This document shows positions 3,608-33,436 of a stretch of DNA of 50,660 bases, piece after piece. A program made the position numbers and the translations under genes. The stretch is from Candidatus Woesebacteria bacterium GW2011_GWA1_39_21 (lineage in GTDB: Bacteria; Patescibacteriota; Microgenomatia; UBA8517): positions 1 through 50,660 of the forward strand of contig LBWP01000005.1 of assembly GCA_000993685.1 (NCBI GenBank), given 5' to 3'. The notes beneath the pieces are model-generated. The model worked only from the letters and a program-made list of their open reading frames with translations, did no database searches and had not been told where the DNA came from. Each line of letters starts with the position of its first letter. Within the stretch, counting starts at the first letter, position 1.

Positions 3608-6600
3608 ATGGACCCTTTAAATGAATTAAAAAATCTAAGTGATTTTAAATCTTTGATCATCAGGCTAGCGTCTTCCGATGACATCAGAAAATGGTCGCGT
3701 GGTGAGGTATTGAAACCCGAGACAATAAATTACAGGACGCTTAAGCCGGAGAAAGATGGTTTGTTCGACGAAAGAATTTTTGGTCCGACAAAAGACTGGG
3801 AGTGTTACTGTGGAAAGTACAAGAGGGTAAGGTACAAGGGTGTTATTTGTGACAAGTGTGGAGTTGAAGTTACACAGTCGCGCGTTAGAAGAGAGCGAAT
3901 GGGTCATATCAGCCTGGCTTCACCCGTGATTCATGTATGGTACTTTAAGGGTGCCCCCTCGCGTCTGTCTCTGGTTTTAGACGTTCCTCCGCGTGCGATT
4001 GAGCAAGTTATTTATTTTGCAAGGTACCTAGTTTTAAATGTTGAAGAGAAGAAAAAAGCTGAGGCTATTTTGCGGATTGAAAAGGCATGGGAGCAAAGAG
4101 AGAAAGAGCTGCAGGGTAGTTTTGATGAAAGAAGGGAACAGCTTAAAGCCAAGGCCGGAGAGGAAAAAACAAAAACTTCATCAAGGATAAAGAACAAGGA
4201 ACAAGTCTCTCTTGCCGTTTCCGAAATCGAACTTGATTATCGAAAAAAAGAAGCCGCACTTTCTAAAGAGGAAAAGACCGCAATTCAAAACACAAAAGAG
4301 TTGTTTGAAGGGATGTCTCAACTTATTAAGAATTTAACGCGTCTTTCCGTACTTTCTGAGGAAGAATACGAACAGCTTGCGTTGTATGAAGCCGTCGACT
4401 TTTTTGAAGCGAAGATGGGGGCGGATGCTATTTTAAGCGCGCTTTCGGGTGTAAATATTGAAGAAGCGGCCTCAAGTTTGAGAAAAGAACTCATTGAGCT
4501 AAAGAGTACAACCGCTTCCAGGTATGTCAAACTGGCAAAAAGGCTAAAAGTAATCGACGGAATGCGCCGCGCGAAAGTGAGTCCTTCTTGGATGGTGCTC
4601 AAAGTTATTCCAGTGCTTCCGCCAGATCTTAGACCAATGGTTCAGCTTTCCGGTGGAAGATTTGCAACAAGCGACTTGAATGATTTGTATCGAAGAGTGA
4701 TCAACCGAAATAATCGCCTGAAACATCTTATAAATCTCGGTGCTCCGGAAATCATTTTGCGAAATGAAAAAAGAATGTTGCAGGAGTCTGTTGACTCTTT
4801 GATTGATGCATCGCAAAGAAAGGCTACACGAAGAGGACGCGGAAGACAGCCTTTGAGATCCCTTTCTGACATGCTTAAAGGGAAGCAAGGGCGGTTTAGA
4901 CAGAACTTGTTGGGTAAAAGAGTTGATTATTCTGGGAGGTCGGTCATTGTTGTTGGGCCTGACTTAAAGCTAAATCAGTGTGGTCTGCCGAAAGAGATGG
5001 CGCTTGAGATGTTTAAGCCCTTTGTTTTGAGGGAAATGATACTCCGGGGAATTGCCCCTAATGTTAAAAGTGCGAAGAACATGCTTGAGAAAAGGCCGCC
5101 AGAGGTTTTTGATATTTTGGAGGAAATTACTAAAAAGCATCCGGTTTTATTAAATCGTGCTCCGACACTTCATAAACTCGGAATTCAAGCTTTTTATCCA
5201 ATTTTGATTGAAGGTAATGCCATAAGGCTTCATCCGGCTATTTGTAGCGGTTTTAATGCGGATTTTGATGGTGATCAGATGGCTGTTCATGTACCTTTGT
5301 CGAAAAAGGCAATTGAAGAGGCTGAAAAGTTGATGCTTCCCGAAAGCAACCTCTTACGACCTGCAGACGGAAGCCCAATTTCAACGCCTTCAAGCAAAGA
5401 GATGGCGCTTGGGGTTTATTTCTTGACAGTTGTTGATTCAAAAAAGGAGCCTTACAAAACGGTGTTTTCAGACCGTGTGGAAGCGATATTGGCTTATCAA
5501 GCGGGTAAGGTTGATTTGAGACAGTTGATTAACGTCAAGATTGAAAAGGAGATTTTGGAAACGACCGCTGGAAGGATACTCTTCAACGAAGCGCTTCCTG
5601 ACGGTTATGAGTTTGTCAATCAGTCAGTTACTTCATCTTTGATAAAACAACTTTTCGCAAAGGTTTATGCAACCAAGGACACTTCAACAGTAGTTGAGAT
5701 GATTGACGCAGTTAAGGACCTTGGTTTTTTTGGGGGTACAATTTCCGGTTTTTCGTTCAGTATTTTTGACGCCAAGATCTCTCCCGACAAAGCTAAAATA
5801 ATTGCCGATGCAGATAGGAAAATTGCTGAAAACGACACCAACTTCGCTCAAGGATTAATTACACTTGAGGAGAAAAAGAATTTGAATCAGAAGGTCTGGA
5901 TCGAAACAACAGAGGAACTTACAGACAAGACTTGGAATCTTCTCGACTCCGACAATCCGATAAAAATTGTAATTGACGCCAAGGTGGGTAGAACTTCCAG
6001 AGATCAGGTTAAACAACTTGCTGCAATAAGAGGGCTGGTTGTCGATCCTCTTGGAAAGATTGTTGAGATGCCAATTAAATCCAACTTTAGGGAAGGTCTC
6101 TCGATTTATGAGTATCTCACCTCATCTCGAGGTTCAAGGAAAGGTCTTACCGACACCGCATTAAAGACTGCTGATGCAGGATATCTAACCAGGCGTTTGG
6201 TTGATGTTTCCCACGACTGTATTATCAGAAGTGAGGATTGCGGTACGAAGGAAGGTCTGTTAATAAAAAGATCGGAGCGAGCAAAATCCTTTAGTGCAAG
6301 ATTGGTGGGAAGGGTGTTAGCAAAGGATGTAATTGACAAGAAAGGTAAAGTTTTACTGGCATCTGGAGTTTTGATTGGCGATTCCGAGACTAAAATCATT
6401 GAAGAAAATCAAGTTGATGAGGTTTCCATAAGGTCACCGCTCTCGTGTATTGAGCGACACGGTGTTTGTGCAGCCTGTTATGGGCGGGATCTCTCAAAGA
6501 AAGGTCTTGTAAAAATTGGTGTACCAGTTGGTGTTGTTGCGGCACAATCTATCGGTGAGCCGGGAACGCAGCTTACACTACGAACCAAACATTCAGGGGG

Positions 6601-7318
6601 AGTTGTTGGTGTCGATGTCACTCAAGGTCTACCACGTGTGGAGGAACTTTTCGAAGCAAGAACGCCAAAGGTTTTTTCGCCTCTTTCGGAAATTTCCGGT
6701 CGCGTCACTCTTGGTGAGACGGAGGAAGGTTGGAAAGTTACTGTAACATCAACTTCGAAACCAAAAGAAGAACGTGCATATTTGGTCCCGATGACGATTA
6801 AATTGGCGGTTGAAGACAAACAACTAATTGAGGCAGGTGGACCTTTGGCGTTTGGCTATCTTGATTTGAAAGAAGTTCTTCTTGTCCGTGGTTTGAAATC
6901 CGCGCAAGAATACTTGGTTAACGAAGTTCAGTCGGTTTACGAAAGCCAGGGTATTAACATTCACGATAAACACTTTGAGATTATCATCAAGAAAATGAGC
7001 GATGAGGTTAAACTTGTAACAAGCGGTGACACCTCTTTGATTCCCGGTGAAATAACAGAGAAAACGGTTTTTGAGGAAGAAAATGAAAAAACACTTGCAG
7101 CCGGTGGTGAGCCGGCGACGGCACAGCAAATAGTTCTTGGTATAACAAGACGGGCGCTTTATACGCAAAGCTGGTTGTCCGCTGCTTCATTTGAGCAAAC
7201 GACCGATGTTTTGACCAGCGCCTCGCTTTGTGGCAGTGAGGATAAACTTTTGGGACTTAAGGAAAATGTCATTATTGGTCGACTTATTCCGGTTACACCA
7301 GAACGGCTTGCCTTGTAA
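3608..7318 (+). CDS. rpoC: DNA-directed RNA polymerase subunit beta'
   Basis: 1236 aa ORF; CYCGKYK...CDKCGVEV zinc site; NADFDGDQMAVH catalytic motif. Confidence 0.98.
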   Translation: MDPLNELKNLSDFKSLIIRLASSDDIRKWSRGEVLKPETINYRTLKPEKDGLFDERIFGPTKDWECYCGKYKRVRYKGVICDKCGVEVTQSRVRRERMGHISLASPVIHVWYFKGAPSRLSLVLDVPPRAIEQVIYFARYLVLNVEEKKKAEAILRIEKAWEQREKELQGSFDERREQLKAKAGEEKTKTSSRIKNKEQVSLAVSEIELDYRKKEAALSKEEKTAIQNTKELFEGMSQLIKNLTRLSVLSEEEYEQLALYEAVDFFEAKMGADAILSALSGVNIEEAASSLRKELIELKSTTASRYVKLAKRLKVIDGMRRAKVSPSWMVLKVIPVLPPDLRPMVQLSGGRFATSDLNDLYRRVINRNNRLKHLINLGAPEIILRNEKRMLQESVDSLIDASQRKATRRGRGRQPLRSLSDMLKGKQGRFRQNLLGKRVDYSGRSVIVVGPDLKLNQCGLPKEMALEMFKPFVLREMILRGIAPNVKSAKNMLEKRPPEVFDILEEITKKHPVLLNRAPTLHKLGIQAFYPILIEGNAIRLHPAICSGFNADFDGDQMAVHVPLSKKAIEEAEKLMLPESNLLRPADGSPISTPSSKEMALGVYFLTVVDSKKEPYKTVFSDRVEAILAYQAGKVDLRQLINVKIEKEILETTAGRILFNEALPDGYEFVNQSVTSSLIKQLFAKVYATKDTSTVVEMIDAVKDLGFFGGTISGFSFSIFDAKISPDKAKIIADADRKIAENDTNFAQGLITLEEKKNLNQKVWIETTEELTDKTWNLLDSDNPIKIVIDAKVGRTSRDQVKQLAAIRGLVVDPLGKIVEMPIKSNFREGLSIYEYLTSSRGSRKGLTDTALKTADAGYLTRRLVDVSHDCIIRSEDCGTKEGLLIKRSERAKSFSARLVGRVLAKDVIDKKGKVLLASGVLIGDSETKIIEENQVDEVSIRSPLSCIERHGVCAACYGRDLSKKGLVKIGVPVGVVAAQSIGEPGTQLTLRTKHSGGVVGVDVTQGLPRVEELFEARTPKVFSPLSEISGRVTLGETEEGWKVTVTSTSKPKEERAYLVPMTIKLAVEDKQLIEAGGPLAFGYLDLKEVLLVRGLKSAQEYLVNEVQSVYESQGINIHDKHFEIIIKKMSDEVKLVTSGDTSLIPGEITEKTVFEEENEKTLAAGGEPATAQQIVLGITRRALYTQSWLSAASFEQTTDVLTSASLCGSEDKLLGLKENVIIGRLIPVTPERLAL

Positions 7319-30404: not shown

Positions 30405-31484
30405 ATGAATGTAAAAAGCTATCTTAAGGAATATATAGTAAGGGCTGATGCCTTTATGGCTTCATATATAGCTAGAAAGATTTTAGAGGTTCAGGATGTT
30501 GGCAAAAATAGCAAGGGAGGACTTGTCGCTGTTGATATGCTCGAAAGATACAAAAATTTTTGTTTGGGTGGAAAAAAATTAAGGGGAGGAATTATACAAC
30601 TGGGTTATGAACTCTCCGGAGGGAAAAAGGAAGATGTTTTAGGAGCGTCTTCATCCATAGAATTCATTCATTCATTCCTTCTTATGCATGACGATATCCA
30701 AGATATGGATTTTCTTCGTCGGGGGCAGCCTACTATCCACAAACAATACGAATCAAAACATGAAGAAATGAAGTTTAAAAAAGATTTTAAACTTTATGGT
30801 ACTTCAATGGGAATCAATATGGGGGATCTTGGTGCTTACATGGGAATGGAAGTAATTCTTTCTTCGTCATTAGATGAGTCGCGGAAATTAGAAGCATCAA
30901 TTTATTTTTCAAGACTTTTGCAGAGAGTTGCTTTTGGTCAGGGGCTTGATGTTACATACGAGCAGCTTCCCAAAGTTACTGAAGCGGATGTTATGGAATT
31001 ACATCTTCAAAAAACAAGTGTCTATACAGTTGGTGGCCCATTAAAAATCGGTGCTATTTTAGGTGGTCTACCTAAGAAAAATATTAATGCGATTGAAAAG
31101 TACGGAGAACCAATAGGTATAGCTTTTCAGCTGCGAGATGACGAACTCGGTCTCTTTTCAAGTGAACAAGAATTGGGAAAACCAATCGGAAGCGATATAA
31201 GAGAGGGAAAAAATACAATTCTGAAAATCAAAGCTATTGAGAAGACAAAAGGCAAAGACAGGGAATTTTTGATGAAAGCTTATGGAGATAGAAACATAAG
31301 CAAGAAAGCTGTTGATAAGGTTAGAGACTTAACTGTCAAAACCGGAGCCTATGATTATTCTAAGAAACTCGCTAAGAAGTTGGTTGCGGATGGGAAGAAA
31401 TTTATACCGCAAATTACAAAAGATTTATATTTTCAAGACGCACTTTCTTCGTTTGCTGACTTCATGATAGAGAGAGGATCTTAA
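30405..31484 (+). CDS. Polyprenyl (geranylgeranyl-type) diphosphate synthase
   Basis: GGKKLRGGI; FLLMHDDIQDMDFLRRGQPTIH (first Asp-rich motif); IAFQLRDDELGLF...LGKPIGSDIREGKNT. Confidence 0.9.
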   Translation: MNVKSYLKEYIVRADAFMASYIARKILEVQDVGKNSKGGLVAVDMLERYKNFCLGGKKLRGGIIQLGYELSGGKKEDVLGASSSIEFIHSFLLMHDDIQDMDFLRRGQPTIHKQYESKHEEMKFKKDFKLYGTSMGINMGDLGAYMGMEVILSSSLDESRKLEASIYFSRLLQRVAFGQGLDVTYEQLPKVTEADVMELHLQKTSVYTVGGPLKIGAILGGLPKKNINAIEKYGEPIGIAFQLRDDELGLFSSEQELGKPIGSDIREGKNTILKIKAIEKTKGKDREFLMKAYGDRNISKKAVDKVRDLTVKTGAYDYSKKLAKKLVADGKKFIPQITKDLYFQDALSSFADFMIERGS

Positions 31485-31502: not shown

Positions 31503-32783
31503 ATGCCTTCGGATGACAAATCACCGTTTCCTCCCGGTACGATTGTTCCAAACCACATTGCTGTTATTCTTGATGGAAACGGAAGGTGGGCACGCTCAAG
31601 AGGGCTTCCTGTTACCAAGGGACATGAAGCCGGGGCGAAGGCAATAAAAAAAGTTATGGATGCGGCGCGTGGTTGGGGAGTTCACACCTTAACGATTTGG
31701 GGATGGTCGACAGAAAATTGGTCTCGCCCATACTGGGAGACTAAAAAAATTATGTCACTAGTTATGACATATCTTCAGAATGAATTAAAGACGGCGAAGA
31801 AAGACGGGATTAGATTTCATCACATAGGTAGAAAAGACAGGCTTCCAAAAGATGTTAGAGCGTGGATCACGAGAATAGAAAATGAAACAAGAAATAACAC
31901 CAAATATATTTTGAATGTAGCGTTAGATTACGGGGGACATGACGAGATAGTCAGAGCTGTAAAAAGAATAGTTGAAGACAAAATTCCATCAACAGAGATC
32001 GACGAGCAATTGTTCGAAAGCTATCTTGATACTTCCGGACAGCCGTATCCCTACCCCGATCTTTTTATCAGAACTTCCGGCGAACAACGAACAAGTGGAT
32101 TTTTGCCGTGGCAGCTGGCTTATACTGAATTCTATTTTGAACCCGACCATCTTCCCGACATGAACCCTGAAAAACTTAAAGCTGCGATACTGGATTTTAG
32201 CCGCAGAAGGAGGCGGTTTGGTGCGAAGGATAAGGTAATGCATTTTAAGTTCGAACCTGAAGCGGTTGCGAAACTTGAGGTTGCTTGGTGGCGGTTGAAG
32301 AAAATTCCGGCTGGCATAAGATTTCGTGATTATGCAATTGAACACATCAAAGAGCAGTTTGGAATTTCAAAAGATCTTGCCAAAAAAGCCGCGCAGTTGA
32401 TGGTCGAGGCGCTGGTTTGGGGTGAAGAGAAAAAGTGGGAAGAAGCGAAGAATCCACTAAAGAAGTTTTATGAGCTGCTCAAAGGCGAACTAAAATTGGC
32501 ATTTGAACCATCAATTGCTGCGTCATTGGAAGTTAAACTCTGGCAGGATATCGGTGATAAGAAAAATATCGGGAGTGTTTTAGATGTGGAAGAGGTTGCA
32601 CGTCAATATTATTCTGAAGTCTATCGTATTTCCGATTTTCAGGCGGCCAAAATTGCGCATTTGAGGATATTGGCTAATCTTGAGAGAAATTTAGCCGAAG
32701 ATGGGGAAGGTGATGATCATTGGAATAAGGCTCGGGATTATCTGCAGAAATATTACGTCGCACTAAAAGACCGCGTTGCTTAA
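31503..32783 (+). CDS. uppS: Undecaprenyl diphosphate synthase fused to C-terminal helical tandem-repeat extension
   Basis: HIAVILDGNGRWARSRGLPVTKGHEAG; DLFIRTSGEQRTSGFLPWQLAYTEFYF; domain ends near RRRRFG, then ~180 aa extension. Confidence 0.93.
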   Translation: MPSDDKSPFPPGTIVPNHIAVILDGNGRWARSRGLPVTKGHEAGAKAIKKVMDAARGWGVHTLTIWGWSTENWSRPYWETKKIMSLVMTYLQNELKTAKKDGIRFHHIGRKDRLPKDVRAWITRIENETRNNTKYILNVALDYGGHDEIVRAVKRIVEDKIPSTEIDEQLFESYLDTSGQPYPYPDLFIRTSGEQRTSGFLPWQLAYTEFYFEPDHLPDMNPEKLKAAILDFSRRRRRFGAKDKVMHFKFEPEAVAKLEVAWWRLKKIPAGIRFRDYAIEHIKEQFGISKDLAKKAAQLMVEALVWGEEKKWEEAKNPLKKFYELLKGELKLAFEPSIAASLEVKLWQDIGDKKNIGSVLDVEEVARQYYSEVYRISDFQAAKIAHLRILANLERNLAEDGEGDDHWNKARDYLQKYYVALKDRVA

Positions 32784-33436
32784 TCAACTTTTATTTCAAA
32801 ACTTCTTAATTTTTCGATAAATGGTTTAACTTTTTCCTCTGTAATATCTTCAGATTTTATTATGCAATGAGAGAATATTTGTTTTTCATTTTCATAATTT
32901 TTCTTTTTAAGAAACTCAAATTTCTCGATTGTATATTTTTTGTCTATTTTACCGGCATACCGTTTCCACGCTTCTTTATATCTTGCTTCCATTGAAACAA
33001 CACCATATGGCGAAACTCGCTGGTCGGCATAAGATAATATTTTAAGATTATAGTTGGACGAACCCGAAATTTTTTCGGATTCGGAAAAACCGATTTGATC
33101 GATGAGATTTATAACATCTTGCAAAACTCCGATTTCTTTTAATATCTTGATTGTTACTTTATGATCGTCGCTGCCGTATTTTTTTGTAAATTCCCTGTAG
33201 ACATCTTTCCAGTAATCAACACCTTGAGGTAGAAACCATGTTTTACTGAAATGTTCAAAATCAAACTTAACAATGTTACCCAAATCATGGAGCAGTCCGG
33301 CGCCTATAATGAAATCTTTATTAATTGGAATTTTGACACTATCGCAGATAAAAGCAGCAACTGAAGCAACGTGGAGCATGTGGAGTTGAAGATTAGGTAA
33401 AATGTAATATTTCTCGTAAATTTCTTGTATTTTCAT
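32780..33436 (-). CDS. HD-domain hydrolase
   Basis: LHMLHVASVAAFICDSV...IIGAGLLHDLGNIVKFD. Confidence 0.8.
   Translation of the reverse strand: MKIQEIYEKYYILPNLQLHMLHVASVAAFICDSVKIPINKDFIIGAGLLHDLGNIVKFDFEHFSKTWFLPQGVDYWKDVYREFTKKYGSDDHKVTIKILKEIGVLQDVINLIDQIGFSESEKISGSSNYNLKILSYADQRVSPYGVVSMEARYKEAWKRYAGKIDKKYTIEKFEFLKKKNYENEKQIFSHCIIKSEDITEEKVKPFIEKLRSFEIKVD

Follow-up and report, generated by a model that had tools for sequence, protein, structure and literature searches.

UppS, the bacterial undecaprenyl diphosphate synthase, is a cis-prenyltransferase that forms undecaprenyl diphosphate (C55), the carrier lipid used to build the cell wall, from FPP and IPP. Most bacteria need this enzyme for their cell wall; it serves as a drug target and is usually described as a small homodimer. 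The DNA analysed here, a stretch of 50,660 nucleotides (the window), holds a UppS gene whose open frame runs on well past the end of the catalytic domain. What this extension is, where it came from and what it may do for the enzyme are the questions raised by the locus.

A complete UppS with a long C-terminal extension

By its residues and profile match, the window protein is a complete and catalytically competent UppS (Table 1). It matches PF01255 with 244.4 bits (cut-off 27) over the entire model (1-219 of 219) and TIGR00055 (uppS) with 228.3 bits (cut-off 109.55), and the catalytic and substrate-binding residues are all there (D24, N26, R28, H41, S69, N72, W73, R190, R196, S198, and E209). 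Solved UPPS structures can be overlaid on the catalytic part of the full-length AlphaFold2 model (44% identity and E 3e-19 for 5kh4 of S. pneumoniae), and a whole-protein search of genome contigs returned an ordinary Clostridia UppS as its sole match. The original prediction had put the end of the UppS domain near RRRRFG, followed by about 180 further amino acids; the PF01255 match does end at this motif, and 186 residues follow it in the same open frame. RRRRFG is invariant across 27/27 fused homologues. It contains the RxG motif, which in the human complex is known to complete the active site from the other side of the dimer interface (PMC7573591).

Table 1. Features of the fused gene and its neighbours, with positions in the window.
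Feature	Position	Strand	Evidence or remark
Trans-polyprenyl synthetase gene, upstream neighbour	30405..31484	+	PF00348 E 8.2e-52
Fused gene, UppS (cis-prenyltransferase) followed by the two-unit helical domain	31503..32783	+	ORF, 426 aa; PF01255, TIGR00055
Catalytic UppS domain, residues 22-240	31566..32222	+	PF01255 E 1.2e-72
RRRRFG (residues 235-240), contains C-terminal RxG motif	32205..32222	+	extension begins right after
Unit 1 of extension, ~residues 248-330, four predicted helices	32244..32492	+	hhalign vs unit 2; AlphaFold2
Unit 2 of extension, ~residues 332-424, four predicted helices	32496..32774	+	hhalign vs unit 1; AlphaFold2
Fusion-specific stretch E372-x2-R375-x-S377-x2-Q380-x2-K383, unit 2	32616..32651	+	residue comparison
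HD-domain protein gene, convergent with fused gene	32780-33436	-	PF01966 E 4.7e-6; 3' end overlap 4 bases

The upstream trans-polyprenyl synthetase is a likely source of the allylic starter for UppS. An operon tie between this synthetase and the extension was considered and rejected, because only some of the relatives have the synthetase gene next to the fused UppS, where it may lie on either strand. In another genome of the same class (G081, L112:2219-4030, + strand), a 604-aa frame joins a UppS to a trans-polyprenyl synthetase related to the one upstream in the window, and this protein may possibly act as a one-chain starter-plus-elongation enzyme; this genome additionally encodes another UppS and a synthetase that is not fused to it. 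Genome G013 has a relative of the HD-domain protein some 3 kb downstream of its fused UppS.

The extension is a duplicated domain, predicted to be helical

Comparison of the two halves of the extension identifies it as an internal duplication of homologous units. The units start at F250 and F334, exactly 84 codons apart, which is the offset claimed originally. Their BLOSUM62 local alignment scores 81, compared with a maximum of 51 in 2000 shuffles, and hhalign pairs the unit-1 and unit-2 profiles with 98-99% probability (E 1.8e-13 to 1.4e-18, score 73-96), compared with a maximum score of 20 in 60 column-shuffles per alignment. The internal repeat is thus significant, with scores above those of all shuffles in both comparisons. 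The fold is predicted to be helical: modelled alone by AlphaFold2, the extension forms eight helices, four per unit and in the same order (pLDDT 86.8, pTM 0.81). In the full-length model, these helices span residues 252-264, 274-286, 290-308, and 312-330 in unit 1 and 336-350, 356-374, 378-399, and 405-425 in unit 2. Because the pTM of that model is moderate (0.67) and the linker 239-245 is poorly predicted, the placement of UppS and extension relative to each other is of low confidence.

In keeping with the original view that the domain was previously unrecognised, no known annotated domain was found in it. The extension and its relatives gave nothing above cut-off in Pfam, NCBIfam, PHROGs, or PADLOC, a profile search of PDB sequences gave nothing significant, and Foldseek with the extension against PDB and BFVD gave no match at E 0.001 or better. 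Two chains of the anti-CRISPR protein AcrIIC5 were returned by the profile search (best E 0.02, 18 bits), and as the similarity covers a single helical stretch, it was taken as chance. Pfam TPR models produced weak, sub-threshold matches in 1-4 of 27 members per model (best E 0.0015) and none for the window protein itself, and TPR proteins were among the weak Foldseek matches. Since no library match reached threshold and those to TPR were weak, the extension is a helical repeat domain that the searched libraries do not classify. No description of a UppS fusion with this domain was found in the open-access literature searched.

The fusion recurs within the phylum

Ribosomal proteins L30 and L9 were not detected in the genome (92% complete, about 1.04 Mb). 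As the absence of both has been stated as general for CPR bacteria (PMC7143001), this fits a CPR (Patescibacteria) genome and makes a survey of UppS across CPR apt. UppS was found in 29 of the 33 sampled genomes of the window's family (f1), and every one of these 29 enzymes carries the extension. The fused frames of this family are single open frames of about 380-450 aa; the one of genome G004 is cut, with its last part in another frame. Retention of the full-length open frame in other genomes excludes a frameshift or assembly artefact in the window.

Survey of UppS length and architecture, proposed with the original prediction, showed that the extension recurs beyond the family. It is present in one genome of family f3, which belongs to the same order as f1, in families f15 and f23 of the same class, and in families f57 and f126 of other classes. 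In the six genomes of the sister family f2, UppS is ordinary (open frames 265-289 aa) and the domain is absent. The phylum sample contained UppS in 192 of 362 genomes and the fusion in nine sampled genomes; most other UppS listed there have open frames of about 222-290 aa, and the UppS of one f57 genome (G402) is unfused. Genome G092 has two nearby fused copies with a gene of unknown function between them (L066:2427-3716 and 5797-7095, - strand).

The extension evolves only slightly faster than the catalytic domain, with a mean pairwise identity of 56% vs 60%. In the window's family, its ALKxRxA C-terminus hardly varies, right up to the final residue. Some relatives have shortened loops in unit 2.

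Stand-alone relatives and the origin of the fusion

The two-unit domain is found, too, without any UppS part, in proteins of about 188 aa, a form that goes beyond what was originally seen. Stand-alone copies were found in genomes G153 (L062), G678 (L126), G241 (L063), G314 (L088), G332 (L089), and G641 (L090), and those measured align with the window domain over the full length at about 22-26% identity. That other members of the phylum encode the domain as a small protein of its own shows that it is real and conserved. Two of these genomes (G314 and G332) have a separate ordinary UppS as well. A further, divergent stand-alone copy is present in G009. In G013, a copy lies beside the fused UppS, in divergent orientation, and is split over two frames (L004:164-831, - strand), either as a broken gene or through an assembly error. 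The stand-alone form had no match in phage records or IMG/VR, and a phage origin was dismissed.

These alignments identify the whole two-unit domain as the unit of evolution. Since the stand-alone proteins already hold both units, the duplication is probably older than the fusion and so did not take place on UppS. Of the duplicated and previously unrecognised accessory domain proposed originally, the internal duplication, the lack of a curated family and the lack of a similar solved fold all stand.

A tree was built from 55 catalytic domains, 33 fused and 22 others, with one polyprenyl-synthetase fusion row counted as unfused. Because the fused UppS fall on one side of one branch, a single fusion event is likely, with moderate support for this branch (84/90, below the star threshold of the tool). 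The nearest unfused rows are those of G402, G049, and G045. Families f1 and f15 are intermixed in the tree, fusions occur in distant classes and none is present in f2, which makes horizontal transfer or repeated loss likely.

Two sets of conserved residues

Comparison of six stand-alone, three f57/f126 fused, and 46 other fused sequences revealed two sets of residues. The first one (G153 numbering) consists of E14, W18, H21, H62, R65, E98, W102, H105, D106, H150, D151, E154, and W167, each present in at least five of the six stand-alone proteins and in all three f57/f126 fusions. Most or all of the 46 other fusions have different residues in place of H21, H62, R65, H105, D106, H150, and D151, with D151 surviving in five; the window protein has K266, G307, K310, I350, G351, R395, and N396 at these positions. 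Glu and Tyr positions such as E259, Y323, and Y418 are retained nearly everywhere. The second set is specific to the fusions and lies in unit 2, where all 49 fused proteins have E372 and Q380 and 48 of them have S377; these positions are mixed in the six stand-alone copies.

Our reading of these patterns is that the stand-alone domain has a candidate polar site, which the larger fused clade would have lost, and that a new surface under constraint arose in unit 2 with the fusion. With six stand-alone sequences compared, the fusion-specific residues could instead reflect the common ancestry of one fused clade rather than a contact. The original prediction suggested membrane or partner binding; the conservation of these residues in the fusions makes a cis contact or a partner interface somewhat more likely.

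Possible functions of the extension

Our best guess is that the extension is a captured helical-repeat domain which is reused in cis as an assembly or docking module, a reading that we favour tentatively and would stop just short of calling probable. It draws on the helical-repeat character of the domain, its attachment beside RxG and the precedent of human DHDDS, whose C-terminal helices assemble a cis-prenyltransferase tetramer (PMC7573591). The donor would have been a stand-alone protein of about 188 aa, relatives of which are still in the phylum. The existing two-unit domain would have been fused to UppS directly after the RxG motif, probably once, and the fusion would then have spread, or been retained, in several lineages. 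We infer that the domain packs in cis on the UppS dimer, possibly through the unit-2 residues E372, S377, and Q380, and that it either links dimers to one another in a higher-order assembly or keeps a partner close to the mouth of the active site. Carrier-lipid synthesis might thereby be tuned or coupled to the next step. Two observations speak against the assembly role: family f2 manages without the domain, and the full-length model combines its moderate pTM with a low-confidence linker.

A broader account would start from a two-unit helical family with a His/Asp site, possibly a metal or ligand site, that was captured by UppS; the site would have been lost in the larger fused clade, leaving UppS with an integral subunit that regulates the synthesis of the carrier lipid in ultra-small bacteria. 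We regard this full chain as doubtful. A related and unlikely alternative takes the extension itself for a ligand- or metal-binding, possibly enzymatic, module, in which a pseudo-symmetric E...WWxxH plus H-D/N pattern per unit would sense or process a phosphorylated or prenyl compound and whose site would have degenerated in the window's lineage, where the domain would persist as a remnant sensor or scaffold. The retention of the His/Asp set in stand-alone copies and f57/f126 fusions is consistent with this, as is the position of several stand-alone genes among NUDIX hydrolase-, histidine phosphatase-, MazG-, and isochorismatase-like and other small-molecule enzyme genes. However, these neighbours (on L062, L063, L088, L089, L090, and L126) were judged by eye and include no constant partner, the domain has no likeness to any known enzyme fold, and the window protein carries K266, G307, I350, G351, R395, and N396 at the His/Asp positions. 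The loss of the set in the 46 fusions argues against an enzymatic role in domains of the window type.

It is decidedly unlikely, in our view, that the extension is a peripheral membrane or lipid-handling module, which would hold UppS at the membrane or release its very long, insoluble product. The product of UppS is indeed a membrane lipid, and two helices of the extension, 310-327 and 407-424, are amphipathic with a positive charge, but the amphipathicity index does not single out the extension because the catalytic domain has helices with equally high scores, and stand-alone copies are found away from UppS. That the extension is a passenger with hardly any functional importance, retained since a fused domain is hard to lose, is very improbable: many UppS of the phylum lack it and shortened unit-2 loops are tolerated, but its near-catalytic level of identity, many invariant residues, nearly invariant C-terminus, and retention on every f1 UppS argue otherwise.

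Returning to the assembly or docking module that we prefer, the conserved extra domain on every UppS of family f1 points to a control or assembly layer in minimal-genome bacteria that neither the libraries nor the papers searched describe. The stand-alone relatives are small, tractable proteins, and a structure would show whether their His/Asp residues form a site.

Comparison with known systems

A normal bacterial UppS (PF01255/TIGR00055) shares the whole catalytic domain, the catalytic residues and the RxG end with the window protein. However, it stops at or shortly after RxG, whereas the window protein continues with its conserved additional residues. The stand-alone proteins have the same two-unit domain over their full length but retain the His/Asp set that the window version has lost.

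The extension resembles TPR and other alpha-helical repeat domains in being built of all-helical tandem units, and the weak Pfam and Foldseek matches reflect this likeness. However, a TPR unit has 34 aa and two helices, in contrast to the ~84-94 aa and four helices of each extension unit, and this difference, together with the lack of a TPR match at cut-off level, sets the extension apart from TPR repeat proteins.

Human DHDDS, the catalytic subunit of the eukaryotic cis-prenyltransferase, resembles the window protein in carrying an additional all-helical domain at its C-terminus. The likeness is analogous, not homologous: the PDB profile search gave no DHDDS match to the extension, and no cis-prenyltransferase was among the best 50 Foldseek matches. 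The C-terminal domain of DHDDS is a single helix-turn-helix motif, whereas the window extension comprises eight predicted helices. Moreover, the DHDDS complex takes its RxG from the partner NgBR, whereas the window protein has RxG in the same chain.
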